DNA from: an uncultured bacterium
GTDB taxonomy: Bacteria > Bacteroidota > Bacteroidia > Chitinophagales > Chitinophagaceae
Direction: 5' to 3'
Assembly: GCA_903834825.1 (NCBI GenBank)
Contig: CAILKQ010000033.1
Span: forward strand, 1-41,980
Length of the DNA: 41,980 bases
The position numbers and the translations under genes were made by a program. A model generated the notes under the pieces. The model saw only the letters and a program-made list of their open reading frames with translations. It had not been told where the DNA came from and did no database searches. Shown here piece after piece: positions 513 to 40,227 of this stretch; within the stretch, counting starts at the first letter, position 1, and each line of letters begins with the position of its first letter.

Positions 513-3500
513 ATGTTGAATGCAATCATCCGCTTTTCCATCAGGAACAAGCTCATCATAGGATTATTTACGCTAGGATGGATCATTTGGGGCTCCATAG
601 AGTTGTTCAAACTTCCTGTTGATGCACTCCCAGACATCACCTCTAATCAGGTTCAGGTCATTACAGTTTCACCTACCCTGGGTTCTCTTGAGGTAGAACG
701 ATTGATTACTTTCCCCATTGAGCAGGCATCGTCCAACATACCGGACATCAAGGAGATAAGGTCTATTTCAAGATTTGGTCTCTCCGTTGTGACGGTTGTA
801 TTTGATGATGACAAAGACATTTATTGGGCCAGGCAACAGGTGAGTGAGCGGATGCTGCTGGTCAGGGATGAGATTCCCAAAGAAGCGGGAACCCCCGAGC
901 TGGCGCCTGTCACCACAGGGCTGGGTGAAATTTACCAGTATATCGTTCGCCCCCAAAAAGGCTATGAAGATAAATTTGACCTCACTGAATTGCGCACCAT
1001 CCAGGACTGGATCATCCGGAGGCAATTGTTGGGTACTCCTGGTGTTGCTGATGTGAGCAGCTTTGGTGGAAAACTCAAGCAATACGAAGTAGCCATCGAT
1101 CCTGTGAAATTAAAAGGGGCAGGGGTAACATTTGACCAGGTATTCAATGCCATTCAGAACAACAACCAGAATTCAGGCGCTGCCTATATTGAAAAAGGGC
1201 CTTCACTTTTGTTTGTCAGGTCAGAGGGCCTCGTCAAATCAATTGAGGAAATCCAAAATATCTATGTGGCAAAATCTGCTGCAGGTACACCCATATACAT
1301 CAGGGATATTGCAGAAGCAAGGATTGGAAGCCCCGTCCGGTATGGAGCCCTTACCTACATGGACGAAGGCGAAGTTTCAGGGGCCGTGGTGCTCATGTTG
1401 AAAGGGGCAAATGCGGCAAAAGTGATTGGTCATATTGAGGACCGCATGAAACAAATTGAAAAGACCTTGCCAGAAGGGGTTGAAATCAATACTTTTCTCG
1501 ATCGCACCAAATTGGTCAACCGCACTTTAGGAACGGTGAAGACCAATTTGCTCGAAGGTGCGATGATTGTTTTGTTGATCCTGGTTTTTTTCCTTGGTAA
1601 CCTGAGGGCCGGGCTGATTGTGGCTTCAGTAATCCCACTGTCGATGCTGTTTGCCGTAGGCATGATGAATCTTTTTGGGGTGACTGGAAACCTGATGAGT
1701 TTGGGCGCACTTGATTTTGGATTGATTGTAGATGGTGCAGTGATTATTGTGGAGGCAGTGCTCCACCGGCTGCATTCCAACAAGCACATGGGCTTGCACC
1801 TTCGCCAGGGCCAGATGGACCAAACCGTTGAACAATCCGCAGGAAGAATGATGGGGGCTGCAGTGTTTGGACAAATCATCATCCTGATCGTTTATATCCC
1901 CATCCTAAGCCTCACTGGTATAGAGGGCAAGATGTTCAAACCCATGGCGCAAACCGTTGCTTTTGCGCTTGTAGGCGCCTTTATTCTCTCCCTCACCTAT
2001 GTGCCCATGATGACAAGCCTTGTATTGAGTAAAAAACTCAACCATCATGATAATATTTCGGATCGGATGATGTTGAAACTTCAGGGAGGATTCCAAAAAG
2101 TCCTGTCGCGGTTGTTGCAACATCCCAAGAAGGTCATTCTTGCCGCGCTGGCATTATTGGTCTTGTCTTTTTTTGTTGCCAGCACGCTTGGGGGAGAATT
2201 TATTCCAGAACTGGAAGAGGGCGACTTTGCCATTGAAGCAAGGCTGATGACAGGAAGCTCATTGGAAGAGACCATTGATGCCACCACCAAGGCCGTTCAT
2301 GAATTGAAAAAGTTTCCTGAAGTGCAGAAAGTGGTCACCAGGATTGGTGCCAGTGAAATACCCACTGATCCGATGCCCATTGAAATGACCGATATCATTG
2401 TCAACCTGAAGCCCAAAAACGAATGGACCAGTGCAACAACTTATGATGAACTGGCCAACAAAATGAGTGCAGCCATAGGCAAAGTACCAGGTCTCACCGG
2501 TGGCTTTCAATACCCCGTTCAGATGCGTTTCAATGAACTGATCGCGGGTGCAAAACAGGATGTGGTATGCAAGATTTTTGGCGAAGACCTGGATACCCTT
2601 GCTTTTTATGCCGCACAATACGAAGAGGTCATTCACAAGGTAGAGGGTGCCAAAGATGTGTATACTGAAAGAGTGAACGGATTGCCACAGATTGTTATCA
2701 AATACAAGCCTGCGGCAATCGCTGCCTACGGGCTCAGTATTGCTGCCGTAAACCGGGTGCTCAAGGCTTCTTTTGCAGGTGAAGCTGCCGGTCAGGTCTA
2801 TGAAAATGAAAGGCGTTTTGACCTTGTCTTGCGCTTGAAAGAAAACAGGCGAAATGATTTGACAGACATCAAAACACTCACGATCACCAATCCTGATGGA
2901 ATTGCTGTCCCCCTTGATCAGGTAGCAGCAATTGGCATTGAGGAAGGTCCGAACCAGGTTCAGCGGGAAGATGCCAAGCGAAGAATAACAGTGGCATTCA
3001 ACGTCAGGGACAGGGATGTGGAATCTGTTGTTAAGGAAGTCCAATCCAAGGCAGAGAAAACCATTGCATTGCCCGCAGGATATTATGTGAAATATGGTGG
3101 GCAGTTTGAAAACCTGGTAGAGGCGAAAGAGCGCTTGATGATCGCTGTTCCGATTGCCTTGTTGTTGATCCTGCTGATCCTTTATTTTTCTTTTGGCTCC
3201 CTTCGCTACGGATTGTTGATCTATACGGCCATTCCGCTTTCAGCCATCGGAGGCATTTTGTTGCTGTGGATGCGTGACATGCCCTTCAGCATCTCAGCAG
3301 GAGTAGGGTTCATCGCGCTTTTTGGCGTCGCCGTTTTGAATGGCATTGTATTGATCAATGAGTTCAACAGATTAAAGAATGAAACCCAATTGGATATGCG
3401 TGACTTGGTTTTAAAAGGAACAACCACAAGGCTCAGGCCTGTATTGATGACTGCTGCTGTTGCGTCATTGGGATTTCTGCCCATGGCATTGAGTACAAGC

Positions 3501-4901
3501 TCTGGAGCAGAGGTCCAGCGGCCATTGGCTACAGTGGTGATTGGCGGATTGATTTCAGCCACCTTGCTTACATTATTTGTTTTGCCCGTGCTCTATGTTT
3601 GGGTTGAAAAAAGAAAAGGCTCCATCAAGGAGCCAGCCCTTTCTTTGCTCCTTGGATTCTTGTCTCTAACGGCAAGCAGCCAGACAATTGGATTGGCATT
3701 GAATGGGCATGTTCCCAATGCAGGACCTTCAGCTTCTTTGCCACTTGACTCCATCATCACAATGGCAGACAGGAATGCACTATCCCTCAAAATGGCTCAA
3801 AAACAGGTTGAATATTATGCTGGGTTAAAGAAAAAATCAGCCGAGATTCCCAAAACTTCTTTTGGCGCAGAATATGGTAACATCAACAGTGCAGCAAATG
3901 ACACCCGATTTTTTCTGAACCAGCAGTTCCAATTGCCAAAGGTCTATGCAAGACAAAAAGAAGCATACCAAAGGTCAGAGGGGCTGCAGGAAGCCAGGAG
4001 ATTTCTTGAAAAAGCGGAGCTTCATCATACCATCAGGCAACTCTGTTTCAGGATCATGGACCTTGACCGAAGGGATGAAATTTTATACAGGTTTCTGAGG
4101 GTTTTTTCCGAGTGGCAGGAAAAAGCAGCCGTTCAGCAAAAAGCTGGTGACATCAATGCCGCAACTTTGAATGCCATTGCGTTGCAATCCAAGCAATATC
4201 TCTTCCAGAAAAAACAGCTGGAAGCAGACCGGTATGCATTGATACAGGAGTTGAATGGGATGATCATGTCGGGTAACAATTTTACACCATCATTAGACAA
4301 TGCGGTCGATAAAAATATCCCTGCACTCATCGCCTCATTTGAATCCCATCCTTCCATCCAAATGGCTGAAGCAGCGGTCAAGGAACAGGTTGCACAAACA
4401 GCATTGGAGAAGAACAGGCTTGCCCCCGATTTCAACCTGGGCTACAGCAATCTTTCTATTACAGGATGGCAAACACCAGACGGGATTTCGCAAAAGTATT
4501 ATGCACCTTCCTATCGGTTTGGCATTGTTCAGGCGGGGGTTTCCATTCCTGTTTTCAATGGTGCTGCCAAGGCCAAAATCAATGCCGCCAAAATCAAAGA
4601 AGAGATTGCTGCCATGCAAAAGCAACAGCAGCTTGAAAACCTGAACAGAAGATTGGCAGATGTGGTTTCACGGTTCAATGCAGCCAAAGAAGCCTATGAA
4701 TACTATGTTTCAGAGGGGTTGCGGTTGTCGGCGGACAACTGGAACCAGGCCAAAAAAAGACTGGAGCTTGGCGATATCTCCTATGCAGAATACAGCCTCT
4801 TGCAGTCGCAGCATTTACAAGTATTGATCGCTCACGCTGAGACCATTCATCAATTGCAAATGGCATCTGCATCGTTTCAATTTCTAACAGAAAAAAAATA
4901 A
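513..4901 (+). CDS. CusA/CzcA-family heavy-metal efflux RND transporter fused to a C-terminal TolC/CusC-like outer-membrane factor
   Basis: 1462 aa. RND part (about 1-1035) contains the heavy-metal RND motif DFGLIVDGAVIIVEA. The C-terminal ~430 aa are a coiled-coil-rich OEP-like domain (ALSLKMAQKQVEYYAG..., RLELGDISYAEYSLLQSQ). Confidence 0.9.
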   Translation: MLNAIIRFSIRNKLIIGLFTLGWIIWGSIELFKLPVDALPDITSNQVQVITVSPTLGSLEVERLITFPIEQASSNIPDIKEIRSISRFGLSVVTVVFDDDKDIYWARQQVSERMLLVRDEIPKEAGTPELAPVTTGLGEIYQYIVRPQKGYEDKFDLTELRTIQDWIIRRQLLGTPGVADVSSFGGKLKQYEVAIDPVKLKGAGVTFDQVFNAIQNNNQNSGAAYIEKGPSLLFVRSEGLVKSIEEIQNIYVAKSAAGTPIYIRDIAEARIGSPVRYGALTYMDEGEVSGAVVLMLKGANAAKVIGHIEDRMKQIEKTLPEGVEINTFLDRTKLVNRTLGTVKTNLLEGAMIVLLILVFFLGNLRAGLIVASVIPLSMLFAVGMMNLFGVTGNLMSLGALDFGLIVDGAVIIVEAVLHRLHSNKHMGLHLRQGQMDQTVEQSAGRMMGAAVFGQIIILIVYIPILSLTGIEGKMFKPMAQTVAFALVGAFILSLTYVPMMTSLVLSKKLNHHDNISDRMMLKLQGGFQKVLSRLLQHPKKVILAALALLVLSFFVASTLGGEFIPELEEGDFAIEARLMTGSSLEETIDATTKAVHELKKFPEVQKVVTRIGASEIPTDPMPIEMTDIIVNLKPKNEWTSATTYDELANKMSAAIGKVPGLTGGFQYPVQMRFNELIAGAKQDVVCKIFGEDLDTLAFYAAQYEEVIHKVEGAKDVYTERVNGLPQIVIKYKPAAIAAYGLSIAAVNRVLKASFAGEAAGQVYENERRFDLVLRLKENRRNDLTDIKTLTITNPDGIAVPLDQVAAIGIEEGPNQVQREDAKRRITVAFNVRDRDVESVVKEVQSKAEKTIALPAGYYVKYGGQFENLVEAKERLMIAVPIALLLILLILYFSFGSLRYGLLIYTAIPLSAIGGILLLWMRDMPFSISAGVGFIALFGVAVLNGIVLINEFNRLKNETQLDMRDLVLKGTTTRLRPVLMTAAVASLGFLPMALSTSSGAEVQRPLATVVIGGLISATLLTLFVLPVLYVWVEKRKGSIKEPALSLLLGFLSLTASSQTIGLALNGHVPNAGPSASLPLDSIITMADRNALSLKMAQKQVEYYAGLKKKSAEIPKTSFGAEYGNINSAANDTRFFLNQQFQLPKVYARQKEAYQRSEGLQEARRFLEKAELHHTIRQLCFRIMDLDRRDEILYRFLRVFSEWQEKAAVQQKAGDINAATLNAIALQSKQYLFQKKQLEADRYALIQELNGMIMSGNNFTPSLDNAVDKNIPALIASFESHPSIQMAEAAVKEQVAQTALEKNRLAPDFNLGYSNLSITGWQTPDGISQKYYAPSYRFGIVQAGVSIPVFNGAAKAKINAAKIKEEIAAMQKQQQLENLNRRLADVVSRFNAAKEAYEYYVSEGLRLSADNWNQAKKRLELGDISYAEYSLLQSQHLQVLIAHAETIHQLQMASASFQFLTEKK

Positions 4902-4904
4902 TTC

Positions 4905-6041
4905 ATGAGATATTCAATGTATTTATTCACCCTCGTTTGCTTGTTCATCCAAAGTTGTTCAGGAAGTAAAACCGTGCCTGCCGAAGAAGCAGCTGTTGAA
5001 GAAACCAATGAAATCAACCTTACCCAAGACCAATTGAAGGCACTTGGTCTTCAATATGGAGATCCTGTTAAAACCCGCATGAGCAGCATCATTACGGTGC
5101 AGGGTAAAATTGACCTTCCCCCACAGAACCTCATCTCTGTCAACTTTCCATTGGGTGGATACCTGAGGAGTACAAAACTCATTCCCGGCATGCACGTATC
5201 AAAAGGTGAGGTGATCGCTATCATGGAAGATCAGGCCATTGTTGAGCTGCAACAGGACTATCTTTCTGCTGCTGCACGGCATGAATTGGCAGGACTTGAA
5301 CTCGAAAGGCAAAAAGCTCTGGGCGAGGCAAGTGCAGGAACTTCAAGGGCCCTGCAGCAGGCCCAGGCAGAGCAAAAGCTACAGGCTGTAGCGGTAAGGT
5401 CTTTGCAGGAAAAACTGAAGTTGATTGGCATTGATGCAAACGCATTGAATGAATCCAACATCTCTGGTCAGGTGTCTATTCGGTCAACCATCAATGGATA
5501 TGTGTCCAAGGTCAATGTGAATACGGGCAAATATGTGCAGCCCACTGAAACCATGTTTGAGTTGATTGATCCTGAAGATATTCATGTGGCCCTTACCCTT
5601 TTTGAAAAGGATCTTCCTTATGTACAGAAAGGAAACCAGGTCAGTATTCATTTCATGGATGATCCGGAGAAGACCTATGCTGCAGAAGTGATCCTGGTCA
5701 ACAAGGGCCTTGATGATGATAGGACGGCCACTGCACATTGTCATTTTAAAGTGCACCCCAAAAACCTTTTACCGGGTATGTTTGTGGAAGGTGAATTGTC
5801 TGTAACCAGCAAGATGGTGGATGCTATTCCTGATGAGGCTGTAGTAAGACTTGGCAACAAGCAATATATTTTTGTCAGGAAATCCGACAATGTGGTTGAA
5901 ATGAAACCAGTGGTTACCGGACTTTCCAAAGATGGAAGAACAGCATTGACCAGCGGCAATGAAGGCCTCCCTGCCGGATCCATTGTGTTGAACAATGCCT
6001 ACAAATTGATGGGGATTCTTAAAAACAGCGGGGAGGAATAG
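4905..6041 (+). CDS. Efflux RND transporter periplasmic adaptor subunit (CusB-like)
   Basis: 378 aa lipoprotein-like N-terminus (LFIQSCSG) with barrel-sandwich and hairpin features (INGYVSKVNVNTGKYVQPTETMFELIDPEDIHV); begins 4 nt after the pump stop codon. Confidence 0.88.
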   Translation: MRYSMYLFTLVCLFIQSCSGSKTVPAEEAAVEETNEINLTQDQLKALGLQYGDPVKTRMSSIITVQGKIDLPPQNLISVNFPLGGYLRSTKLIPGMHVSKGEVIAIMEDQAIVELQQDYLSAAARHELAGLELERQKALGEASAGTSRALQQAQAEQKLQAVAVRSLQEKLKLIGIDANALNESNISGQVSIRSTINGYVSKVNVNTGKYVQPTETMFELIDPEDIHVALTLFEKDLPYVQKGNQVSIHFMDDPEKTYAAEVILVNKGLDDDRTATAHCHFKVHPKNLLPGMFVEGELSVTSKMVDAIPDEAVVRLGNKQYIFVRKSDNVVEMKPVVTGLSKDGRTALTSGNEGLPAGSIVLNNAYKLMGILKNSGEE

Positions 6042-6043
6042 TT

Positions 6044-6361
6044 CTAGTCTTTGTAGTCTTCCCTCACAGGACTGAATACATCAATCAATACACAGTCTGT
6101 ATGGGCTGTGGCAGAGTGGGGCGTGTTGGAGGGAATGACCTTCACCACACCAGGCTCAAGCATTATCGTTTCATCACCGATTTGCATTTCCATTTTCCCT
6201 TCCAGCATTAGGGTGATTTGTTCATGGGGATGATGGTGTGCAGGAAGTTTGCTGCCTGCCTGGATGGTCACCCATCCTAATGTTGTGCTGTCGCCATGAA
6301 CATATTGGCCGATAATACCTTCTGTGATCAATTTCTTTTTTACTTCGCTGATCTTTGGCAT
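6044..6361 (-). CDS. Small cupin-domain protein
   Basis: Cupin motif GSKLPAHHHPHEQITLMLEGKMEMQIGDE...PGVVKVIPSNTPHSA. Confidence 0.85.
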   Translation of the reverse strand: MPKISEVKKKLITEGIIGQYVHGDSTTLGWVTIQAGSKLPAHHHPHEQITLMLEGKMEMQIGDETIMLEPGVVKVIPSNTPHSATAHTDCVLIDVFSPVREDYKD

Positions 6362-6373
6362 GCTGTTGATTTT

Positions 6374-7567
6374 TTATTGTTCAAAATAGGCAACGGATCC
6401 ACCGACCCAGTCTTTGTCTTTGTTGTACCGAACACCTATCATTTTCCCTTTGCTGAGCCTGCCCAGGTTGGTGGCCAGGATAGGTCTTTCCTTTCCTTCT
6501 TCCCAGATATACATCAGCCTGATTTCTGCCTTTGCAGGTTCATTGGGCGTTTGGATGCAGGAAGCATACTTTACTTTTCGTTGGAGAATCCAGTGTTCAG
6601 GTTGCTGGATGGCCCCAATGTCTTCTTTGGTTACATCAATGACCACGCCTTGTCCGGCAAATGAAAACAAGGGCTTCAGAACAAAATTGTGGAGATCTTC
6701 GGGAATGCTTTCCATCTCATTGAGGAAAAAAGTTTCCGGGATGAATGGGTGGCGAAGAAAAGGCAGGGTGAATTTTGAAATCCTGTAAAACCAGTGGGGG
6801 TGAGGCACCCACTCTACATCAAGGTCTGACTTAAGGTCCACAACCGGCCCAAGGGAATCCTTTACAGCATTCATTTCATCTGCAATGATCCTGTTGTAGA
6901 TTCTTTTGATCCTTGTTTTAACCCCATTGTTGTCATAGTACAATGCTCTTCCTTCCTTTATCAATGCTGTGATGCAAACAGGTGAAATACCCAGGTAGTC
7001 TTCTGTACAATAAAAATCAATCCTTGTTTTTTGTTGATGGGGTTTTATTTCAAGCAGAATCACTTCTTCCGGCATGTGTTCACCAAGGATTACCCGTTTG
7101 AGCAATGCTATATAGCTTGATTTGTTCAATCCGTTGAAGTAGTGGGAAAATCCATCAGGAATCTTGAAATGTCTTTCCAATACCTCAGGATAATAGGCCT
7201 GCATGCCAAACAGGGTGGGGAAGCCCTGCATCTCAATGAGTGCTGGGGAAAAACCACCCGTTTCGTTTTCGCAGATGCCAAAATCAAATGCAATAAAATG
7301 GGATATCTTGTTTTGCCCTTGAACCATCTCTTCGGCAGGAATGGCCCTTTGGGTGATTGCATTGAAATCAGGATGGATGATGAAATCGATGATCGATTCA
7401 CAGGTTTGGATCATCTCTTGCCCAAGCTTTCGGTCAATGAATACAGGGGTCTCTGCAATCCGAAAATCAATGGCACCAGGGTGTACACTGTTCAGATCCA
7501 GGAGAAAATTTTCATATTTCTCCTGGCTGAATGATGCGTTGAATTGTTCCCTGATTGATTGGATCAT
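6374..7567 (-). CDS. ATP-grasp-like ligase, family uncertain; start shortened from the track ORF (7642) to avoid overlap with the upstream gene
   Basis: C-terminal FVLKPLFSFAGQGVVIDVTKEDI...WILQRKV...AEIRLMYIWEEGKERPILATNLGRLSKGK resembles ATP-grasp nucleotide- and metal-binding segments. An internal ATG at 7567 lies just after the upstream stop at 7590. Confidence 0.65.
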   Translation of the reverse strand: MIQSIREQFNASFSQEKYENFLLDLNSVHPGAIDFRIAETPVFIDRKLGQEMIQTCESIIDFIIHPDFNAITQRAIPAEEMVQGQNKISHFIAFDFGICENETGGFSPALIEMQGFPTLFGMQAYYPEVLERHFKIPDGFSHYFNGLNKSSYIALLKRVILGEHMPEEVILLEIKPHQQKTRIDFYCTEDYLGISPVCITALIKEGRALYYDNNGVKTRIKRIYNRIIADEMNAVKDSLGPVVDLKSDLDVEWVPHPHWFYRISKFTLPFLRHPFIPETFFLNEMESIPEDLHNFVLKPLFSFAGQGVVIDVTKEDIGAIQQPEHWILQRKVKYASCIQTPNEPAKAEIRLMYIWEEGKERPILATNLGRLSKGKMIGVRYNKDKDWVGGSVAYFEQ

Positions 7568-7589
7568 CTCCTGTGTTGTATGAAAGGGT

Positions 7590-8414
7590 TTAAGGGTTGT
7601 TGATCTTGGCAATGGCCTGCACAATAAAATTGGGCAAGACATGGCTGTTGGTCATGCTGATTTTTTCAGGATCATTGAGTTGCTCAATCATGGACTCCCA
7701 TTTTTCCTGGCCATGGTTTTCAATCACAGTTTTTTTCTTGTCATCCCGCTTCAAATACATGCTCATTCCCTGGGCATCGGCCTCAGGATGAAACTGTGTT
7801 CCCACCATATAGGCATTAAACCGAATGGCCATGATGGCCCTTTCCAGGGCTACATGGGGCCTCTCTTTCTCAATGCAAAGCAATTCAGCACCAATATCCT
7901 GCATCCGATCCAGTTGGGGCTGGATGACCTGGAAGTCGCGGCTGTCCACAACATAAAAGGGATTGCTAAGTCCTTTGAAAACTGGTTCATCTAATCCAGC
8001 TTCCAATCTGTGCAAGGGGAAGACACCAAATGCAGTAGACTTGCGTTTGGTTACATGGCCCAATCCAAAATAACGGCAGGCCAGTTGGTAAGAGTGGCAG
8101 ATGAAAAATGCATATTTTTTGTTGATGTTGTTGGCCGTATTGTTCCATGCAACCAGATCTGAGAGCCATTTGAAATAGGCATTGTCCCAAACCATTCCTT
8201 CACTTTCCAATGGACTTCCCGGCCCGCCGGAAGACAGGTAGATGTCAAATTCCAAAGAGGGCAATTCCTGCTTGCAGCGTACCTCAAATTCCTCCCATTC
8301 AAGTGCTTGGTTATAGTCTATGTTCATGCGCACCAACATTTCCCTGATGCACCGCATTCCCTCATTCTGTTGGCCATCGTAAAGGTCCAATATGGCAATT
8401 TTGATCTTCTTCAT
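7590..8414 (-). CDS. Class I glutamine amidotransferase-like protein
   Basis: SSGGPGSP, a nucleophile-elbow-like AFFICHSYQLA and a downstream GTQFHPEAD (Cys-His-Glu arrangement). Confidence 0.82.
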   Translation of the reverse strand: MKKIKIAILDLYDGQQNEGMRCIREMLVRMNIDYNQALEWEEFEVRCKQELPSLEFDIYLSSGGPGSPLESEGMVWDNAYFKWLSDLVAWNNTANNINKKYAFFICHSYQLACRYFGLGHVTKRKSTAFGVFPLHRLEAGLDEPVFKGLSNPFYVVDSRDFQVIQPQLDRMQDIGAELLCIEKERPHVALERAIMAIRFNAYMVGTQFHPEADAQGMSMYLKRDDKKKTVIENHGQEKWESMIEQLNDPEKISMTNSHVLPNFIVQAIAKINNP

Positions 8415-8432
8415 TTCGCCAGCAAAGGTACA

Positions 8433-9539
8433 TCAAAGGCTGCCAAGAAACTTGGATTCGATATAGGCAGCAACTGCTTGAAAACTCTTGGTTTGTTCGT
8501 AGATTTCCAGCTGCCTGTCTGCTCCGGTTCCCTTCTCCAAAATGGTGGTGATGCTTTTCAGGGCCTCCCTGCAGCCCAGCTTATCTACCACATCATCAAT
8601 GAAATCAAGGAGCTCAAGAATCAATGCCCTGGTATTAACTTCCTGCTCTTTTCCAAAATCAATGAGCTTATCATCAATGCCATAACGGGAGGCCCGCCAT
8701 TTGTTTTCATTCACCAAGGCTCTGGGATAGATCATGAAGTTCAGGTTGGCGGCCCTGAGTTTGAACAGCTTGGCACAAATGCACTGGAAAAGGGCTGCGA
8801 AGCCCACCGTTTCATCAACGGTGAGGGGCACATCACAGACCCTGAATTCAACTGTTCCATAAAATGGATGCACCCGAAGATCCCACCAGATTTTCTTGGC
8901 GTTATCGATACAGTTGGTTTTGATGAGCAGGTTCACATAATTCTCGTAAGCGCTGTAGCTGTCAAAATAATCCGGAATACCGGTACGGGGGAACTTATCA
9001 AATACCTTGGTTCTGTATGATTTGAAACCGGTCACCCTTCCTTCCCAAAAAGGGGAGTTGGCGCTCAGGGCAAACACATGGGGCAGGAAATACCTTGCAG
9101 AGTTGGCGATGTGAATGGCCATTTCCTTGGTAGGCATGCCAACATGGACATGCAGCCCAAAAATCAGGTTGGATCTTGCGGCATCCTGCATCTCATTGAC
9201 AATTTCCTGGTAACGGATATGGTCTGTGATCAGCTGTTGGCGCCAGGTGCTGAAAGGGTGTGTTCCTGCCGCACCAAGACTGAATCCCAGGGAATCAGCA
9301 ATGCCATGGATGGTTTTTCTGAGGTTGTAGATATCATGCCTGGCTTCTTCAATGTTGTTGCAAACATCGGTTCCCACTTCAACCACTGCCTGGTGCATTT
9401 CGGCCTTGACTTTTTCGCTGATGATTTTTTGTCCTTCCGCAACGATTTTCTGCTCATGGCTGATCAGCGCTTTGGTTGTAGGGTCAATGACCATGTATTC
9501 TTCCTCGATGCCGACCGTAAACTGTTTATAGTTGATCAT
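8433..9539 (-). CDS. Carboxylate-amine ligase, glutamate-cysteine ligase type 2 (GCS2/YbdK-like) family
   Basis: N-terminal FTVGIEEEYMVID, then AGTHPFSTWRQQ, GLHVHVGM and HPFYGTVEFRVCD motifs. Confidence 0.9.
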   Translation of the reverse strand: MINYKQFTVGIEEEYMVIDPTTKALISHEQKIVAEGQKIISEKVKAEMHQAVVEVGTDVCNNIEEARHDIYNLRKTIHGIADSLGFSLGAAGTHPFSTWRQQLITDHIRYQEIVNEMQDAARSNLIFGLHVHVGMPTKEMAIHIANSARYFLPHVFALSANSPFWEGRVTGFKSYRTKVFDKFPRTGIPDYFDSYSAYENYVNLLIKTNCIDNAKKIWWDLRVHPFYGTVEFRVCDVPLTVDETVGFAALFQCICAKLFKLRAANLNFMIYPRALVNENKWRASRYGIDDKLIDFGKEQEVNTRALILELLDFIDDVVDKLGCREALKSITTILEKGTGADRQLEIYEQTKSFQAVAAYIESKFLGSL

Positions 9540-9552
9540 CTTGAATGGTGTT

Positions 9553-10512
9553 TTATTTGGTTAGCGGTTTGCCTGCAGCGCTTTTTTTGATGTACTCTCC
9601 CCAAGCCAGGTTATCTGCCCCTTCTTTAAGGTTTTCTGCAACCTCAATCGCATAATTGGCTGAAGTCTCAACGACCCAGTCAAAATTTTCCTGTCCAACA
9701 CTTTTCAGGTCTGCATCTGGTGCAGGGTTGCAAAAATCAATCGCATAGGGTATACCATCCCTGATGGCCAATTCAACGGTGTTGAAATCATAGCCAAGAT
9801 GGTTGTTGATGTTCAGCACAATATCTTCCATGGTCTTCAGCATTTTTGCTGATGGGTTGAAGTTGGCAACATAGCGCAGATGATGGGGGTTGCGTGGTTC
9901 GTAAGGCATGATGCGGACATGCTTTCTGCCGATGCAATAACAGCGGTAATATTCCTCAAACACAATCTCTTCCTGCAAGAGCATGACCAGTTGACCAGTT
10001 TCAGCATGTCTTTCAAAAAACTCATTCATGTCGTTCAGGCGGTAAACGTTTTTCCACCCTCCCCCGGCAAAAGGTTTCATGTACGCCGGGAACCCAACAT
10101 AATCAAAGATGCCCTTCCAATCCAGCGGGTAGGCCAAGTTGGAAAATGACTCGGCTGAAGTGTCGTCTGGAAGTTCCCTTGAAGGCAGGATAACCGTCTT
10201 GGGTACGGGCACCCCAATTTTGGTGGCCAAAGCATTGTTGAAGAACTTTTCATCGGCACTCCACCAGAAAGGATTGTTGATGACAGCCGTACCAGAGATG
10301 GCTGCATTTTTGAGGAATGCCCTGTAAAACGGTACATCCTGGGATATCCTGTCGATGATAACAGCATATCCTGAAGGGTCGCCCTGAATGACTTTGTCAA
10401 TTTTTACCGGTGCTGCTGAAATGTCTTTGATATTCTTTTCATTGATTCTTTTTACCAATGCTTCGGGGAATGATCTTTCCTTGCCATGCAAGACACCAAT
10501 TATTTTCGCCAT
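9553..10512 (-). CDS. ATP-grasp domain protein (RimK/GshB-like)
   Basis: FPAYMKPFAGGGWKNVYRLND...MLLQEEIVFEEYYRCYCIG...NTVELAIRDGIPYAIDFCNPAPD. Confidence 0.85.
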   Translation of the reverse strand: MAKIIGVLHGKERSFPEALVKRINEKNIKDISAAPVKIDKVIQGDPSGYAVIIDRISQDVPFYRAFLKNAAISGTAVINNPFWWSADEKFFNNALATKIGVPVPKTVILPSRELPDDTSAESFSNLAYPLDWKGIFDYVGFPAYMKPFAGGGWKNVYRLNDMNEFFERHAETGQLVMLLQEEIVFEEYYRCYCIGRKHVRIMPYEPRNPHHLRYVANFNPSAKMLKTMEDIVLNINNHLGYDFNTVELAIRDGIPYAIDFCNPAPDADLKSVGQENFDWVVETSANYAIEVAENLKEGADNLAWGEYIKKSAAGKPLTK

Positions 10513-10596
10513 GTTGTTTACTTGTTGACCTAAGATAATGAATTTTATTTATGCTGCTCTGTTTGTGATTCAAGTCCAATAACAGATTCCTTTGCC

Positions 10597-10604
10597 TATT
10601 TTTG
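10597..10604 (+). promoter_or_regulatory. Candidate Bacteroidota -7 element (TATTTTTG) for the esterase gene
   Basis: Matches TAnnTTTG. It overlaps the TTG start proposed by the ORF track, which argues for the downstream ATG at 10632. Confidence 0.4.
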
Positions 10605-10631
10605 TCGCCACTCAAAAAGTGGTTTTACACA

Positions 10632-11417
10632 ATGGGCGATGTTTTCAGTTTCCAGGTTCAATCCAGTTTTCTTTCCAGGCAAGTGAAAGTGGATGTCTAT
10701 GAAAAAAAAGCCGCTTGCCCTTCTTCGCTTGTTGCACTGCTGCTGATCAACGACGGCCAAGATCTACCATCAATGGGCTTTGCTGATATGCTCGAAAAGC
10801 ATGTCCATTCATTCTGCAGGCTAATCTGCGTTGGGATTCATGCGGGCCCGGATAGAAAACAGGAGTATGGCGTGGCAGGCATTCCAGATTTTATGCAAAG
10901 GGGAGCATGCGCCGGAGCCTATGCAACATTCATACTGAAAGAGTTGATGCCCTTGCTTCACCAAAAAACAAATGCAGTCAAGTTCGATAAAAAATACATT
11001 GCTGGATTTTCCCTGGGCGGACTGATGGCTTTTGACATGGCCATTGATCATCCGCTGGAGTTCAGTGCTGTTGGCGTTTTCAGCGGATCCTTCTGGTGGC
11101 GGTCTAAATCTTTGGAAGATGGCTATGTGGAAGAGCGCGACAGGATCATGCACGCCAAGGTAAGGAAGGCTGCCTATCATGAAAACAGGAAGTTTTTTTT
11201 ACAGGTGGGAGCCTTGGATGAAAAAGAGGACAGGAATAAAAATGGCATCATCGATTCCATTGATGATACCCTGGGAATCATCGGAGAACTGGAGGCAATT
11301 GGATACCGAAAAGGGCAAGACATTCATTATCTCGAGATGCCTGATGGTCGACACGATACCGCAACCTGGGGCAGGGCTATGCCTGGATTTTTGGGTTGGT
11401 TGAGCGACCTGAAATGA
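10632..11417 (+). CDS. Alpha/beta hydrolase-fold esterase
   Basis: Nucleophile elbow IAGFSLGGLMAFD, FSGSFWW and C-terminal GRHDTATWGRAMPGFL. Track ORF starts at TTG 10602; the in-frame ATG at 10632 is preferred. Confidence 0.82.
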   Translation: MGDVFSFQVQSSFLSRQVKVDVYEKKAACPSSLVALLLINDGQDLPSMGFADMLEKHVHSFCRLICVGIHAGPDRKQEYGVAGIPDFMQRGACAGAYATFILKELMPLLHQKTNAVKFDKKYIAGFSLGGLMAFDMAIDHPLEFSAVGVFSGSFWWRSKSLEDGYVEERDRIMHAKVRKAAYHENRKFFLQVGALDEKEDRNKNGIIDSIDDTLGIIGELEAIGYRKGQDIHYLEMPDGRHDTATWGRAMPGFLGWLSDLK

Positions 11418-15513: not shown

Positions 15514-18303
15514 ATGAGGGTTATTTATAAAATTACTTTATCAATAATTTTTCTCTTTCACCTTTCCATTTCAATGTATGGCCAACGGTTCGGGGCCAAC
15601 CCTTCATCGGTGAAATGGAAAAAAATCAGGGGAACTGCTGCCGATATTGTCTTTCCGAATGGATCGGATGCTGATGCATTGCGCGTCAATGCAATTACCC
15701 GGTTATTGGATAAACAGGATTCCGGTAGGTTGGGGAATGCCCGTTTGAGGATACCCATTGTGTTACAAACACTGCCCACCGTTTCAAATGCCTATGTTGG
15801 ATTAGGTCCTTGGAGGAGTGAGTTCTTTTTGTTTCCTCCACAAAATGCCCTAAACCTAGGCTCAACCAGTTGGCTTGATAATTTGAGCGTGCATGAATTC
15901 AGGCACGTGCACCAGTATGCCAATTTCCGGAAGGGTCTTTCAAAATTTGCCTACCTGATTGCAGGCCAGGAAGGACAGGCATTGGCCAATTCTGCATCTG
16001 TTCCTGACTGGTTTTTTGAGGGCGATGCTGTGTATACCGAAACAAAATACCTCAGCCAAGGACGGGGCAGGCTTCCCGGTTTTTATGATCCATTCCGCAG
16101 TCTTTGGACGGCCAACAAGCAATATGGTTATCAGAAGCTGAGAAGTGGCTCAATGAAAGACCTGGTCCCCAACCATTATGCATTGGGTTATCTGTTGGTT
16201 GCCTATGGATATGGCAGACAGGGGGATGGCTTTTGGGCCAGGGTTACGGACGATGCAGCCAGGTTCAAGGGGCTGTTTTATCCACTCCAGTCTGCCATCA
16301 AAAAGCAGACTGGCCTCCAATTCAATGCGTTTGTACGCCGTGCTATAGATTCTTTTCGGTTGAATATTCCAGTTGAGGTTAGTCAATATAATGTGCAGAT
16401 GATCAATAAGTTAGATACAAAAAAAGTAGTCGATCATCATTTCCCCATTTTTCTAGGAGGAGATTCTGTCCTTGCCCTGCGCAGGGCATATAACCAATTG
16501 CCTCATTGGGTGATTTTCAGCAAGGGTAAAGCATCAAGATTGAACGTCAAGAATATTGGCGCGGATGATTATTATACCTATAAAGGGGGCAATGTTGTTT
16601 ATGCTGCGTATTCACCTGATCCCAGGTGGCAATGGAAAGAAAGCAGTGATATCATCCTGTACAATATTTACGACCGATCGGAGCAGCGGGTTACCAAGGG
16701 CAAAAGGTATTTTTCTCCGGATCTTTCCAATGATGGGCAGCAGTTGATTGCAGTGGATGTTGCACCGGGGGGTAAAACCAGCCTCGATTTGATCAATCGG
16801 GAAACGGGTGAAAGGATGAAAAGATTTGAAAATAGTTCTGGTATTTACTTTAGCTATCCTGTTTTTAATCATTCAGATTCAATTGTTTATGTTATTGGAA
16901 GAAAAGACAATGGGGTATCAGCCTTGTTGCGATTGGATATAACCAGCGGCTCCTTTTCAGAAGTTTTGCCATACACCAATGCACCGATGTCTTTTCTTCG
17001 AAACAGGGGTAATAAGCTGGTGTTTACGGTTTCTCAGGGGCAGACCAACCAGTTTTGGGAGCATGATATGGTGTCTGGTAAAACCGGCGTCTTGGCAGTT
17101 GGAATTACCGGAGCCTATGCTGGAGACATCCATGAAGAGGGCAAAAAAATTGTTTACAGCAGTCCTTCAGCGGAAGGTGAGCAGGTGTTTAGTGCTGATT
17201 ATCGCTTTACCGAGGCCCATATCAATCCTTTGAAACCCGAAAGTGAAATGGATTTGATGACTGGCGTCAACGTTTCCAATGATCCAATAACCGATTACAA
17301 AAAGGCTGAAGGGCTGTTCCGAATCCATTCCTGGAGGCCTTTTTATGAACAGCCCGAATGGAGCTTTACGCTCTATGGGCAGAACCTGCTCAATACAATG
17401 GTTTCCTCCTACGAATACCTTTACAATGAAAATGAGGGATCTCACCGGGTGGGGGTAAACTTGGCCTATGGGGGGCTCTATCCATGGATTACAGGAGGAA
17501 CCAATTATACCATCGACAGAACCTACAAGGACAGCAGTCGGTTGATTCGCTGGAATGAATGGACAGGAAATGTTGGTTTGAGGTTACCCCTGAATTTCAC
17601 TGCTGGAAAGGTGTACAAGCAGCTCGACCTTTCTACAAGAGTACATGCCGTATCAGTTGACTATGATAATAAAAATACTGTTTCACTCAAGGACAGGTTC
17701 ATTCCCTATCTGCAGCACCAAATCAGTTGGTCCATGCAAACCCAACAGGCTGTCCAGCATATTTATCCAAAATTTGCTTTTGTAACCCGATTGCAAAGCA
17801 GGATGGCCATTGGCAATACCAGTGCCAACCAGTTGTATTGGGGCTCACAACTGTATTTACCAGGGGTTGGTCGCAACCATTCACTGGTATTGGGTTTCAA
17901 TTACCAGATGCGGGACACGCTAAGACAGTATTCATTTTCTAATGGCTTTGCCATGGCCAGGGGATATGAAGCCATCGATTATCCCCGCATGTGGCGAACA
18001 TCCTTCAATTACCATATGCCATTGCTCTATCCCGATCTCGGCGTTGGCAACATTGTCTATTTTTTGAGGGTCAGGAGCAATTTCTTTTATGACGACATGC
18101 ACCTGAAGAGTTTGAGAACAGGAAAGGTCATCAACTTCAGGAGTACAGGAACGGAGATTTACTTTGATACCAAATGGTGGAACCAGCAGAATGTGACCTT
18201 CGGACTGCGCTACAGCAGGTTATTGGATACAAAACTGTTTGTAAAACCTCCGAATCCAAACCGCTGGGAATTCATCATGCCCATCAATTTGCTTTCCAAC
18301 TAA
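15514..18303 (+). CDS. Secreted multidomain protein: peptidase MA-like (gluzincin) N-terminus, beta-propeller-like middle, outer-membrane-barrel-like (possible Omp85/surface antigen) C-terminus
   Basis: Signal peptide; LSVHEFRHVHQYA (HExxH) with downstream VPDWFFEGDAVYTE; repeated propeller-like strands; C-terminal alternating strands with FAMARGYEAIDYPRMW...VRSNFFYDD. Confidence 0.65.
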   Translation: MRVIYKITLSIIFLFHLSISMYGQRFGANPSSVKWKKIRGTAADIVFPNGSDADALRVNAITRLLDKQDSGRLGNARLRIPIVLQTLPTVSNAYVGLGPWRSEFFLFPPQNALNLGSTSWLDNLSVHEFRHVHQYANFRKGLSKFAYLIAGQEGQALANSASVPDWFFEGDAVYTETKYLSQGRGRLPGFYDPFRSLWTANKQYGYQKLRSGSMKDLVPNHYALGYLLVAYGYGRQGDGFWARVTDDAARFKGLFYPLQSAIKKQTGLQFNAFVRRAIDSFRLNIPVEVSQYNVQMINKLDTKKVVDHHFPIFLGGDSVLALRRAYNQLPHWVIFSKGKASRLNVKNIGADDYYTYKGGNVVYAAYSPDPRWQWKESSDIILYNIYDRSEQRVTKGKRYFSPDLSNDGQQLIAVDVAPGGKTSLDLINRETGERMKRFENSSGIYFSYPVFNHSDSIVYVIGRKDNGVSALLRLDITSGSFSEVLPYTNAPMSFLRNRGNKLVFTVSQGQTNQFWEHDMVSGKTGVLAVGITGAYAGDIHEEGKKIVYSSPSAEGEQVFSADYRFTEAHINPLKPESEMDLMTGVNVSNDPITDYKKAEGLFRIHSWRPFYEQPEWSFTLYGQNLLNTMVSSYEYLYNENEGSHRVGVNLAYGGLYPWITGGTNYTIDRTYKDSSRLIRWNEWTGNVGLRLPLNFTAGKVYKQLDLSTRVHAVSVDYDNKNTVSLKDRFIPYLQHQISWSMQTQQAVQHIYPKFAFVTRLQSRMAIGNTSANQLYWGSQLYLPGVGRNHSLVLGFNYQMRDTLRQYSFSNGFAMARGYEAIDYPRMWRTSFNYHMPLLYPDLGVGNIVYFLRVRSNFFYDDMHLKSLRTGKVINFRSTGTEIYFDTKWWNQQNVTFGLRYSRLLDTKLFVKPPNPNRWEFIMPINLLSN

Positions 18304-21113: not shown

Positions 21114-21827
21114 TTAGTTGACTTTGACTTCTTTGAGATAGATGTCTTTATATTCCACTTTCATTTTCGCCATCACATGCACCTGAAGTCCTATCAGGCC
21201 CGTGAACTTTCGTTTGACCAGATCCTCATCAGTTGTTTCACTCATCAATACACCATTGATATAATGCATGAGATGGTTGCCTTTGGCAATGATGTGGATT
21301 TCGTTCCAATCGTCCACCTTTATTTTTGCTTTCAACTCATCTGATTTACCAACAGATCCGGTGATGGTAGGCTTCTGTCCATCCTTCAACACGGATTGTT
21401 CACCCCGCATGGCCAGAAATCCACGACCACGTTCTTCGTAGTTCTGTCCTGTGTAGCGGTTGGCGCCATCAATATCAGCCTGGTATCCTTTCAAGGCAAA
21501 TGGCAGATTGTCTAAGGCCTCGCTGCGGTATTGCACGCCACTGTTGCCTTCCGGACTGATGCGGTAGGATGCCTTGAATTCAAAATTTTCAGGAATAGTT
21601 CCACGGTAGATCATGAAAGTATTGGTCTTAAGCGGTTTCTCTTTGGTTACTTCACCGACAAAGCACCCGTTCTCAATGCGCCAATGGGAAGTATCTGCCT
21701 CCCAGTTTTTCATGTTCTTTCCATTGAAAATTTTCTTGAAACCATCTTTTTGCTGTGCTTCTGAGACAAAAGTTGAACCCATGAAACAGAGCAGAAAAAG
21801 AATATTGAGGCGATTGTATTTAATCAT
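21114..21827 (-). CDS. DUF1080 (3-keto-disaccharide hydrolase-like) secreted protein
   Basis: Signal peptide; GFKKIFNGKNMKNWEADTSHWRIENGCFVGE...NSGVQYRSEAL...DDWNEIHIIAKGNHLMHYINGVLMSETTDED. Confidence 0.92.
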   Translation of the reverse strand: MIKYNRLNILFLLCFMGSTFVSEAQQKDGFKKIFNGKNMKNWEADTSHWRIENGCFVGEVTKEKPLKTNTFMIYRGTIPENFEFKASYRISPEGNSGVQYRSEALDNLPFALKGYQADIDGANRYTGQNYEERGRGFLAMRGEQSVLKDGQKPTITGSVGKSDELKAKIKVDDWNEIHIIAKGNHLMHYINGVLMSETTDEDLVKRKFTGLIGLQVHVMAKMKVEYKDIYLKEVKVN

Positions 21828-21869
21828 GAAAGAAGATTGATGCTTGATTGTTATTGGTTATTGCAGACA

Positions 21870-23021
21870 CTAACAGGTTTTCCAACTGCGGGTAGCAGCA
21901 GAATCCAGGACGGCTTGACAAACTTTCTGGGTTTCGAGGGCTTCCTTGAAAGTAGGGGAGCAAGGCTCGCCAGTTTCAAGGCTCTTCAGGAAATCAGCCA
22001 CTTGGTGTACAAAAGAATGTTCGTATCCAATGCCAAGACCCGGTACCCACCATTTGTTCATGTAGGGTTGTTCGCCATCGGTTACATGGATCGAGCGCCA
22101 TCCCCTGAGGTTGGACTCATCACCATTGTCAAAAAATTCCAGGCGGTTCAAATCATGAAGATCCCAACGGATGGAGGCATTGGCGCCATTGATTTCAAAC
22201 GTATACAGCGCCTTGTGTCCTCTTGCATAGCGCGTAGATTCGAAAAGGCCCAGGGATCCATTGTTGAACTTGCAGAAGAAAGAACAGGCGTCGTCAATGT
22301 GCACTTGCTCTACTTTTCCTGTCAACTGGTGCATGCGTTCCTTGACAAAAGTTTCCGTCATGCCTGATACTTCCTTGATGCCACCATTGAGCCAGATGGC
22401 CGTGTCTACGCAATGGGAGAGTAGATCACCGACCACACCAGAGCCTGCTACAGCGGCATCCATGCGCCAAAGGGCTTCTCCACCCTGGGGCAGGTTTTCA
22501 TTGATGGTCCAGTCTTGCAGGAAATTGGCGCGGTAATGATAGATTCTACCCAGTTTCCCGGATTCAATGATGTTCTTGGCCAAGGTAACAGCAGGGATTC
22601 TCCTGTAATTGTACCAGACCGTATTTTTAACACCTGCTGCCTCAATGGCATCCACCATCACCTGGGATTCTTCAAGGTTCCTGGCCAATGGTTTTTCACA
22701 AAGGATCATCTTGCCGGCCTTCGCGGCTGCGATGGCAATTTCAGCATGGGTGTCATTGGGTGTGCAGATATCCACTGCATCGATATCATTCCTTTCGATC
22801 AGCTTTCTCCAATCGGTTTCTGTGCTCTCATATCCCCACTGTTCAGCAAATGCTTTCAGTTTGGTTTCGTTGCGAAAACAAACTGCTTTGAGTACAGGAG
22901 TGAATTCCAGGTCAGGAAAAAAATTGCGGATGCGGTTGTATCCATTAGAGTGGGTTCTTCCCATGAATCCTCCACCGATCAACCCAATATTGAGTGTCTT
23001 TTTTGTTGCCATTGTATACAA
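21870..23021 (-). CDS. Gfo/Idh/MocA-family oxidoreductase
   Basis: [19 protein letters not shown] Rossmann motif; [42 protein letters not shown]. Confidence 0.95.
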
Positions 23022-23046
23022 TTTTTCGTTAGTATTTTATATGTTG

Positions 23047-24081
23047 TTAAGCGCCTGTCCAACCATGGTGGTTCCTTACTTTGATCAAGGCAGCAAGGAT
23101 ATCGTTCCAGGTTTTTTGTTGCATCATGACTTCGTTGGGGAACATGCAGCCATCCCAACAAATGTGTTGAAACGCTTTGGTGAGTTCGCCATTTTCATCG
23201 CGCAGCCAAAAACCTGCATGCTTCGCAATATCGAGCTTTCCATTGGGATCAAGTGCCTGGCAATGTCTTCCAGTTTTGTCGTGAGATCCTGTGCCATGAA
23301 CGGTTCCATCGTTTTGTGCCACATGGAAATCAATGGTCCATGGGCGCAGTGCGCTGGTCAATTTTTTAAGTCCTTCATCCAAAACGGCACCATCGCTCCA
23401 ATCAAAATTTTCAGGAAGGATGCGATCTTGAGGGGCATTGTAGCCGAGCAGGTAGAGCAAGGTATGGGCCATGTCTGCCTGGAACCCAATGTTCGGGCGA
23501 TCAACAGCTTCCAGGGTATCTACCATTGCTTTCCAGCTGTGCATGCCACCCCAACAGATTTCCCCTTCAGCAGCCAGTCGCTCACCATAATCAGCAGCAA
23601 CATCACAGGCCTCCCGAAAAGTTTCTGCAATCAGTTTGGTATTGCCTGCAGGATCCAATGCCCAGGCTTCCGGTTTGCTGGCAGAGTCGATGCGGATGAT
23701 GCCATATGGGCGTACACCAGCGTTGCGGAGTTTTTTGCCAAATTCGCAGGAGCGTTTGACCATATCAACAAATACGGCGCGGTCTTCTTTGCTGCCCATG
23801 GCAGGGCCACCCCAGATGGGAGCCACCAAAGAACCGATGTTGAGGTTGAGTGCGCCTACTTTGTCAGCCAATCTTTTAATCCCATCTTCTGATTCATCGA
23901 TGTTGAAATGGGGTTCAAAAAGGCCGATATCGATGCCGTCAAATTTCACTCCATCCACTTCTGCATTGGCGGTGAAGTCGATCAATGTGTCCAGTGAAAT
24001 AGGGGGTTCTGAATCCGGGCCTTTTCCTACGATGCCAGGCCACGTAGCGTTGTGGAGTTTGGGATAATTGTTTTCAGACAT
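23047..24081 (-). CDS. Sugar phosphate isomerase/epimerase-type TIM barrel protein
   Basis: AP-endonuclease-2-like fold features ([18 protein letters not shown]..., [49 protein letters not shown]). Confidence 0.85.
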
Positions 24082-24105
24082 ATGGTTGCATTTTTGTTTG
24101 AAGAA

Positions 24106-24957
24106 TTAAAGATTGTGTTTTGCCGCTTGAGCTTTGATAAAGGAAAGCCCATTGATGGCCATGTCCCAGGGGCCTGAGTATTCTCTCCATACATTGATGG
24201 CATTGGCAAAATCCGGATCGTTGCGTGAGAAGGCTTCGATGGTCAGCCATCCGTTGTACTTTATGGCGGCAAGGGCAGCAAAGGTTTCATACCAATGTAC
24301 ATGTCCATCTCCTGGCGTTCCCCGATCATTTTCGCTGATGTGTACATGTTCCAAAACCGGAGCAATGGTAGACAGTGCTTCACTAGCCTTCTTCTCTTCA
24401 ATGTTGGCATGATGGGTATCATACATCGCTTTCACATGAGGATGCTTGGCCTTATCAACAAGGTGTTTGAGCTGCACCATTGTGTTGCAGAGATAACATT
24501 CGAAGCGGTTCAATGCTTCCAGGGCAAGGGTGATACCTGCCTGGGCTGCATGTTCACCAGCCTGGTGCAAGACTTCTGCACACCAGTTGTATTCATCTTC
24601 CTGTGGAGGTTTTTTCGAAAAATGGCCATGGGCAGAATGAAAGGGCCCGCAAAGGATGGTAGATTGCATGTCGTGTGCACGATCGATGCCCCATTTGATG
24701 CGGTCCAGTGCCTTGGCACGAACAGTGGCGGAAGGGTCTACCGGATTGTGCGCTGCATCCACTACAAATACACTGGTGGTTTCCAATCCAATGTTTTGTG
24801 CATGATTGCCAAATCGCTTATAGGCTGCATCATCCGGCGCACCGACAAAACATTCCACACCATCGTAGCCAATGGATTTCAAGCGATCAATGATGGGAAA
24901 TTGTTCGTCCGAGACCACGGCAGACCAAACCAATGTATTGAATCCAATTTTATACAT
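24106..24957 (-). CDS. Sugar phosphate isomerase/epimerase-type TIM barrel protein (hydroxypyruvate isomerase-like)
   Basis: LKSIGYDGVECFVG, GITLALEALNRFECYLCNT, HVKAMYDTHHANIEE, HVHISENDRGTPGDGHVHW. Confidence 0.9.
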   Translation of the reverse strand: MYKIGFNTLVWSAVVSDEQFPIIDRLKSIGYDGVECFVGAPDDAAYKRFGNHAQNIGLETTSVFVVDAAHNPVDPSATVRAKALDRIKWGIDRAHDMQSTILCGPFHSAHGHFSKKPPQEDEYNWCAEVLHQAGEHAAQAGITLALEALNRFECYLCNTMVQLKHLVDKAKHPHVKAMYDTHHANIEEKKASEALSTIAPVLEHVHISENDRGTPGDGHVHWYETFAALAAIKYNGWLTIEAFSRNDPDFANAINVWREYSGPWDMAINGLSFIKAQAAKHNL

Positions 24958-24963
24958 GCTGTT

Positions 24964-25860: not shown

Positions 25861-25881
25861 GGCAATGAAAAATCATGTTTT

Positions 25882-29061: not shown

Positions 29062-29073
29062 GTTAGAATTGAT

Positions 29074-30288: not shown

Positions 30289-30312
30289 ATCGGCTTATGT
30301 TGGGTTAAATAA

Positions 30313-31359: not shown

Positions 31360-31365
31360 CCGTTT

Positions 31366-34056: not shown

Positions 34057-34252
34057 GATGGCAATTTTAATAAAGCAAATTCAGTATCCTTGTTTGAACC
34101 AATCATTGGTAAGTTTACTTAAATTGCCTAAGATTTTAATGTACCGTAAAATAGGCCTTACCCCTCAATAAAAAAAATATATCGGGCAAAGTTTATGCAC
34201 GGTCTCTTGTTGGTAAACCCTAAAAGCCATACAAGTACTTAAGTCAGCTATT

Positions 34253-40107: not shown

Positions 40108-40227
40108 GCCTTGCCCACGAATATTTTTCGAAATTAACAAGATAATTCCGAAGGCTCAGCTGAATTTCAAACAACAATCACCCTTGGAGGACATGCAAAT
40201 CAGGAAGGTTTTTTAAAATTTTAACAT

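Follow-up and report, generated by a model that had tools for sequence, protein, structure and literature searches.

The window analyzed here comprises all 41,980 nucleotides (nt) of contig CAILKQ010000033.1 from an uncultured member of Chitinophagaceae, represented by a metagenome-assembled genome (MAG; assembly GCA_903834825.1, G000 in our genome set) of 2.6 Mb in 205 contigs. Positions 6044-11417 of the window carry a cluster of putative amide ligases and associated enzymes, namely a minus-strand run of five genes, GRASP1-GCS2-GAT-P2-cupin, separated by gaps of 13, 18, 22, and 12 nt, respectively, and an esterase gene that diverges from GRASP1. The first gene of the operon, GRASP1 (9553-10512), encodes a predicted RimK/LysX/Ddl-like ATP-grasp amide ligase of 319 amino acids (aa) and is followed by the genes for a YbdK-type carboxylate-amine ligase (GCS2, 368 aa, 8433-9539), a class I glutamine-amidotransferase-like protein (GAT, 274 aa, 7590-8414) and a predicted circularly permuted ATP-grasp ligase of the glutathione-synthetase/GspS/YgiC fold (P2, 397 aa, 6374-7567). 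An initial annotation of this region had described five minus-strand genes with gaps of about 12-22 nt plus a divergent esterase, and this layout is confirmed, all six open reading frames (ORFs) being present where that annotation had placed them. The gap of 22 nt between GAT and P2 assumes that P2 starts at ATG 7567, which is near-invariant across 63 homologues; if the start of the mechanical ORF (7642) were used instead, P2 and GAT would overlap. Near-identical loci (L002-L006) are found in Chitinophagaceae MAGs or an uncultured bacterium.

GCS2 and GAT can be assigned by sequence comparison, in both cases as the initial annotation had proposed. By its scores with curated models and its catalytic motifs, GCS2 is classified as a YbdK-type carboxylate-amine ligase: it matches PF04107 (208 bits, E 2e-61) and scores above the cut-offs of TIGR02050 (301 bits, cut-off 176) and PRK13515 (520 bits, cut-off 371), its nearest PDB entry is YbdK (1r8g, E 4.5e-48), and the GIEEE, EMHQ, FGLHVHVG and EFR motifs are conserved across 24 sequences. 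The PF00117 score of GAT (35.7 bits, cut-off 22.8, E 8.9e-9) and its Cys-His-Glu triad (C106, H209, and E211, invariant in 26 of 26 homologues) likewise classify it as a class I glutamine amidotransferase.

The other two ligases had been called ATP-grasp proteins, and the modelled folds agree with both calls. GRASP1 has no Pfam match and falls below the cut-offs of the curated RimK/LysX family models (TIGR00768, 26 bits against 143, E 4.5e-6; TIGR02144, 22.5 against 276). The Foldseek matches of its AlphaFold model (pLDDT 85.8) include ArgX (3vpc, E 1.7e-14) along with LysX, Ddl, RimK, and the graspetide ligase PsnB (E-values from 1e-14 to 1e-12), so that the predicted fold is that of an ArgX/LysX/Ddl/RimK-like ATP-grasp enzyme. 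In an alignment of 22 sequences, GRASP1 homologues are 52-98% identical to the window copy; no GRASP1 was found in viral contigs. Eight of these 22 proteins (in L048, L053, L054, L062, L064, L065, L070, and L074) carry a Lys-rich C-terminal tail of 17-109 residues, mostly Lys/Ala-rich and histone-H1-like, which the window copy lacks. In one family, GRASP1 is followed, in the same orientation, by hutH, which encodes a genuine histidine ammonia-lyase (about 680 bits, cut-off 539). The two genes occur together at L101:5703-8182, L103:10301-12783 and L104:5404-8290, and in L101 and L103 they are separated by 2 nt or by fewer than 10 nt; as a clue to a histidine-containing product, this arrangement is confined to that family.

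P2 has no match at E ≤ 1 in Pfam or NCBIfam, including GSP_synth and GSH_synthase, and its sole sequence-profile match in the PDB is YgiC (E 0.012). Its AlphaFold model (pLDDT 94.7, pTM 0.92) is matched by Foldseek to yeast glutathione synthase (1m0w, E 4.9e-14), YgiC (7uk8, E 3.1e-12), and GspS (2io7, E 2.8e-11). Every one of the 26 PDB matches at E ≤ 0.001 belongs to the circularly permuted ATP-grasp type, spanning the yeast, human and plant (homo)glutathione synthetases, GspS, YgiC, YjfC, and fungal Cp1B (9cjn, E 1.3e-9), and the predicted fold of P2 is therefore circularly permuted ATP-grasp of the glutathione synthetase/GspS/YgiC type. The residues D95, E112, Q114, K298, P299, G305, G307, E348, and R350 are invariant in 63 P2 sequences. 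Cp1B requires R139, D141, E163, and N165 (PMC12568646), and D95 and E112 are the likely counterparts of D141 and E163, the residues of P2 being matched to the catalytic positions of its relatives by motif and spacing rather than by superposition. Unlike YgiC, YjfC, and Cp1B, with which it shares at most 16% identity in structural alignments, P2 is linked to GCS2 and to another ATP-grasp protein. Direct homology searches with hhalign gave no significant match between P2 and GRASP1, and the comparison of P2 with a CP_ATPgrasp_2 protein was not significant either. P2 appears to define an ATP-grasp family that has been overlooked by sequence libraries. No P2 gene was found on plasmids. In one genus, a sodium:solute symporter (SSF, PF00474) and P2 form an in-frame fusion with P2 as the C-terminal part, a single 867-aa ORF in L069:7637-10237; in L130:3002-5636 and L131:3273-5950 the SSF part is frame-broken, yet reads into P2 without a stop. 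This gene fusion could be a clue that the substrate or product of P2 is a transported solute.

The distribution of the cluster was assessed in an even sample of 396 genomes across the phylum Bacteroidota, among which P2 is present in 114, GRASP1 in 134, GCS2 in 129, and GAT in 86. Genomes with P2 nearly always contain GRASP1 (110/114, Fisher 5e-68) and GCS2 (109/114, 2e-69) and frequently GAT (69/114, 2e-30), the tests treating genomes as independent; all four genes are found in 64 genomes and none of them in 246. The genes are also commonly adjacent, that is, within 10 kb on one contig (GRASP1-GCS2 in 73 of 113 genomes, GCS2-P2 in 63 of 109, GRASP1-P2 in 61 of 110, and P2-GAT in 50 of 69). 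A cluster of the three ligase genes is seen in 59 genomes and one of all four in 37, usually in the order GRASP1-GCS2-GAT-P2; for a span of 20 kb in some 4 Mb, the chance expectation would be about 0.5% for each genome. Presence is patchy within families and even within one genus (G166 lacks all four genes, G072 and G388 have them) and, therefore, shared ancestry alone is insufficient to explain the pattern. The clustering spans many families of Bacteroidota, so the neighborhood is conserved well beyond close relatives, which excludes one of the outcomes that the initial annotation had named as refuting its reading. The interpretation of the cluster as a functional module across the phylum is supported.

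Some parts of this module seem to be exchangeable. An M29 metallopeptidase gene takes the place of GAT between GCS2 and P2 at four loci (L054, L055, L061, and L073). Conversely, 16 genomes have GRASP1 and GAT without P2, and in 15 of these the starts of the two genes are separated by 2.2-2.7 kb, enough to accommodate one gene between them; at all six such loci that were read (L097-L100, L127, and L134), the intervening gene encodes another circularly permuted ATP-grasp protein (PF14403/PF04174). Around GRASP1, then, two kinds of interchangeable part recur, a GATase or peptidase on the one hand and a circularly permuted ligase on the other. Among the 86 operon-mates scanned, the commonest Pfam families are Esterase (PF00756, 10), Amidohydro_3 (7), and M29 (4), and M42 or Amidohydro_3 genes are neighbors at other loci of the cluster. 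The link to the divergent esterase, suggested by the initial annotation from this single locus, extends to other genera, in which such a gene lies beside GRASP1 (L037, L047, L107, L109, L110, and L111); it is kept at the last four of these loci although GAT and P2 are located elsewhere. A second PF00756 esterase gene immediately precedes GRASP1 in 12 loci. The cupin gene fared differently: it adjoins P2 only in L002-L005 and L037, that is, in the genus of the window and a single other one, and, given this lack of conservation, we rejected its proposed membership in the pathway.

In glutathione-type GCS2 enzymes, the group activated is the gamma-carboxylate of glutamate; in glutathione synthetase and GspS, it is the carboxylate at the C-terminus of a gamma-glutamyl peptide. 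Enzymes of the LysX/Ddl type link amino acids. From this knowledge of the families, the simplest scheme would be one in which GCS2 makes the first amide, most likely gamma-glutamyl-X. P2 would then activate the carboxylate left free in this amide for the addition of an amino acid or amine, and one more unit would be added or supplied by GRASP1. The three ligases, although of different build, would share acyl-phosphate chemistry with conversion of ATP to ADP, which suggests several successive amide bonds. GAT, or M29 in its place, would contribute a peptide-cleaving step, GAT possibly acting as a cysteine hydrolase that cleaves a (gamma-glutamyl) amide, and the esterase may remove an ester or thioester group; the operon would thus carry both synthesis and turnover. 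The reading that we prefer, and to which we assign about an even chance, is that a small peptide or amide, probably a gamma-glutamyl one, is made in Bacteroidota by a widespread pathway of sequential ATP-dependent synthesis with turnover built in. The basis of this reading is the conservation of catalytic residues, the operon-like layout, and the phylum-wide co-occurrence and adjacency established here, together with the modelled folds, in particular the match of P2 to gamma-glutamyl-peptide ligases (glutathione and homoglutathione synthetases and GspS). A more specific proposal is advanced tentatively, as we consider it somewhat more likely to be wrong than right. In this proposal, the product would be a previously undescribed gamma-glutamyl peptide or peptide-amine of low molecular weight, serving much of the Bacteroidota as a general metabolite; it would be assembled by three unrelated or only distantly related ligases, among them a new circularly permuted ATP-grasp family, and recycled by dedicated hydrolases. 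If this holds, about 110 of the 396 sampled species of a major phylum would share a biosynthetic route, which would indicate a physiological role rather than a strain-specific natural product; a cofactor, an osmolyte, a redox or detoxification compound, or a nitrogen or amine store would be candidates.

Several points weigh against sequential synthesis as outlined above. The Fisher tests take the genomes to be independent, though related genomes are not. The ligase genes are scattered in about 40% of genomes, and the enzymes could therefore serve more than one pathway. GAT, absent from 45 of the 114 genomes with P2, is for that reason not essential to the core. Compared with the active site of glutathione synthetase and YgiC, P2 has Gln114 in place of Asn (E112-x-Q114) and a glycine-rich KP loop without Glu (KPLFSFA, against KPIFSRE in YgiC). 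Furthermore, the substrates, the order of the steps, the product and the roles of the hydrolases are points that we infer. This applies to the "gamma-glutamyl" and the "trimming or recycling" of the initial annotation as well, for which the replacement of GAT by M29 and the recurrence of amidohydrolases and peptidases nevertheless provide some support.

One alternative is a non-orthologous glutathione or homoglutathione pathway, in which GCS2 would form gamma-Glu-Cys, P2 would add glycine or beta-alanine, and GRASP1 and GAT would be accessory. The best structural match of P2 is indeed yeast glutathione synthase bound to gamma-Glu-Cys, and the E. coli member of the YbdK family, to which GCS2 belongs, is credited with gamma-glutamyl:cysteine ligase activity (Lehmann, 2004, as cited in PMC2588565). 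However, GCS2 is far below the GshA equivalog models, including the plant/cyanobacterial and EgtA ones (65 against 249 bits for TIGR02048, 15 against 371 for EgtA, and 28 against 463 for plant GCL), the active-site Asn is changed in P2, and the presence of GRASP1 in 110 of the 114 genomes with P2 implies that two enzymes are not the whole system. In addition, BshC, of bacillithiol synthesis, was found in all 50 genomes tested, P2-positive and P2-negative, and therefore a thiol is probably already present; we consider this alternative improbable. In its strict canonical form, a glutathione pathway is rejected, given that GshB (TIGR01380, cut-off 299 bits) is above the cut-off in none of these 50 genomes, with no match whatever in the genome of the window, and that GCS2 does not reach the GshA models. 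The ordinary glutathione pathway that the initial annotation had named as potentially refuting its reading is accordingly made less likely. The distribution of BshC also led us to reject the cluster as a stand-in thiol route for bacillithiol. P2 might instead be a polyamine ligase, the product being a gamma-glutamyl-peptide polyamine conjugate like those of GspS, YgiC, and YjfC, which the esterase or GAT would hydrolyse. This sub-case of sequential synthesis draws on YgiC being the sole sequence-profile match of P2 and on the presence of YgiC, YjfC, and GspS among its fold matches, YgiC and YjfC being described as peptide-spermidine ligases (Pederick, 2023, as cited in PMC12568646). The differences of P2 from YgiC in the loop and the Asn position, and the absence of genes for making polyamines from the families most common in the 86 operon-mates, make it unlikely.

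The role of GAT and the nature of the acceptor allow two further alternatives. With its intact triad and PF00117 membership, GAT could draw ammonia from glutamine for one of the ligases to form a primary amide, classic amidotransferase-synthetase pairs being the precedent. Its absence from 45 genomes with P2 argues against such a function, as does the M29 metallopeptidase found in its place, which would not deliver ammonia from glutamine; with a peptidase in this slot and the triad of GAT intact, peptide hydrolysis is favored over ammonia supply, and we regard the latter as rather unlikely. The ligases might, on the other hand, modify a protein or polymer with peptide units rather than produce a soluble metabolite, in the manner of RimK, LysX-LysW, or pupylation. 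Several of the nearest relatives of GRASP1 (LysX/ArgX, Ddl, RimK, and PsnB) act on protein or peptide carriers, and the Lys-rich tails of 8 of the 22 GRASP1 proteins could bind a polyanion; yet the relatives of P2 and GCS2 use small molecules, no carrier-like family is among the commonest Pfam families of the operon-mates, and the gaps of 12-22 nt are too short for the operon of the window to include a gene for a carrier or precursor. The same gaps leave no space there for a precursor gene of a graspetide, a ribosomally synthesized and post-translationally modified peptide, short ORFs elsewhere not having been screened. Modification of a protein or polymer has a low probability in our estimate.

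Sequential synthesis, as we envisage it, resembles the formation of glutathione, homoglutathione, and glutathionylspermidine (GshA-GshB, GSS, and GspS) in that a GCS2-superfamily ligase would be followed by one or more ATP-grasp ligases with acyl-phosphate chemistry, P2 sharing the predicted fold of glutathione synthetase and GspS. It differs from these systems in having three ligases rather than two and an accompanying GATase and esterase, in addition to the scores of GshB and GCS2 given above and the Asn to Gln change in a P2 that sequence models do not recognise. Linked ATP-grasp and GCS2-like amidoligases with hydrolases are a recognized kind of neighborhood (PMC2588565; PMC4431377), and the cluster is similar to those of Iyer, Aravind and colleagues (2008-2015), in which ATP-grasp and COOH-NH2 (GCS2-like) ligases are linked to peptidases. 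New in comparison with these, the clusters of Iyer et al. (2009) excepted, are the P2 family and its modelled fold, the phylum-wide co-occurrence, and the alternative circularly permuted ligase. We found no product assigned to this gene combination in the literature, exclusive of the amidoligase survey of Iyer et al. (2009). Genomes without P2 often carry another cluster (L117-L124) that encodes one or more glutathione-synthetase-type ATP-grasp proteins, an N-formylglutamate amidohydrolase-like protein (FGase) and MATCAP (DUF1704), and strong matches to glutathione-synthetase-like ligases were found in 8 of 20 P2-negative genomes versus none of 30 P2-positive ones. This apparent mutual exclusion was dropped as evidence on the product, since the neighborhoods concerned, with their combination of ATP-grasp, FGase, and MATCAP, do not represent a glutathione pathway.

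The remaining genes of the locus are the peripheral cupin gene (6044-6361, minus strand; a small Cupin_2 protein of 105 aa, PF07883 E 1.3e-14), kept in close relatives only, and the esterase gene (EST, 10632-11417, plus strand; 261 aa, PF00756 E 2e-18, with a GFSLG nucleophile motif). For the esterase, ATG 10632 is the most likely start codon, rather than TTG 10602 of the mechanical ORF, because the ATG, unlike the TTG, is conserved in three relatives. The divergent promoter region between GRASP1 and the esterase (10513-10631) contains TATTTTTG at 10597-10604 on the plus strand, upstream of the esterase ATG. It fits the Bacteroidota -7 element, the consensus of which is TAnnTTTG, and is invariant in four aligned Chitinophagaceae sequences; no -33 element was found at the correct spacing from it, and promoter and terminator scans gave scarcely more matches than the shuffled expectation. 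An Rfam scan of the window yielded two tRNAs and nothing else.

At lower window coordinates than the cluster, a 1462-aa ORF (513-4901) combines the ACR_tran part of a resistance-nodulation-division (RND) metal efflux pump with an OEP/TolC domain for outer-membrane efflux and is followed by a periplasmic adaptor gene (4905-6041); members of this efflux family are also found beside the ligase cluster in L037 and L040. Farther along the window, positions 15514-18303 encode a 929-aa protein with no Pfam match at E ≤ 1e-5. A run of genes for a GFO/IDH/MocA oxidoreductase, a 3-keto-disaccharide hydrolase, a DUF7133-cytochrome c protein, and Planctomycete-type PSCyt1/PSCyt2/PSD1 proteins (21114-36808) probably represents a sugar-oxidation island in this Chitinophagaceae genome. 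Finally, a 471-aa ORF at 38725-40140 fuses an exonuclease (RNase_T) domain to a GIY-YIG nuclease domain.

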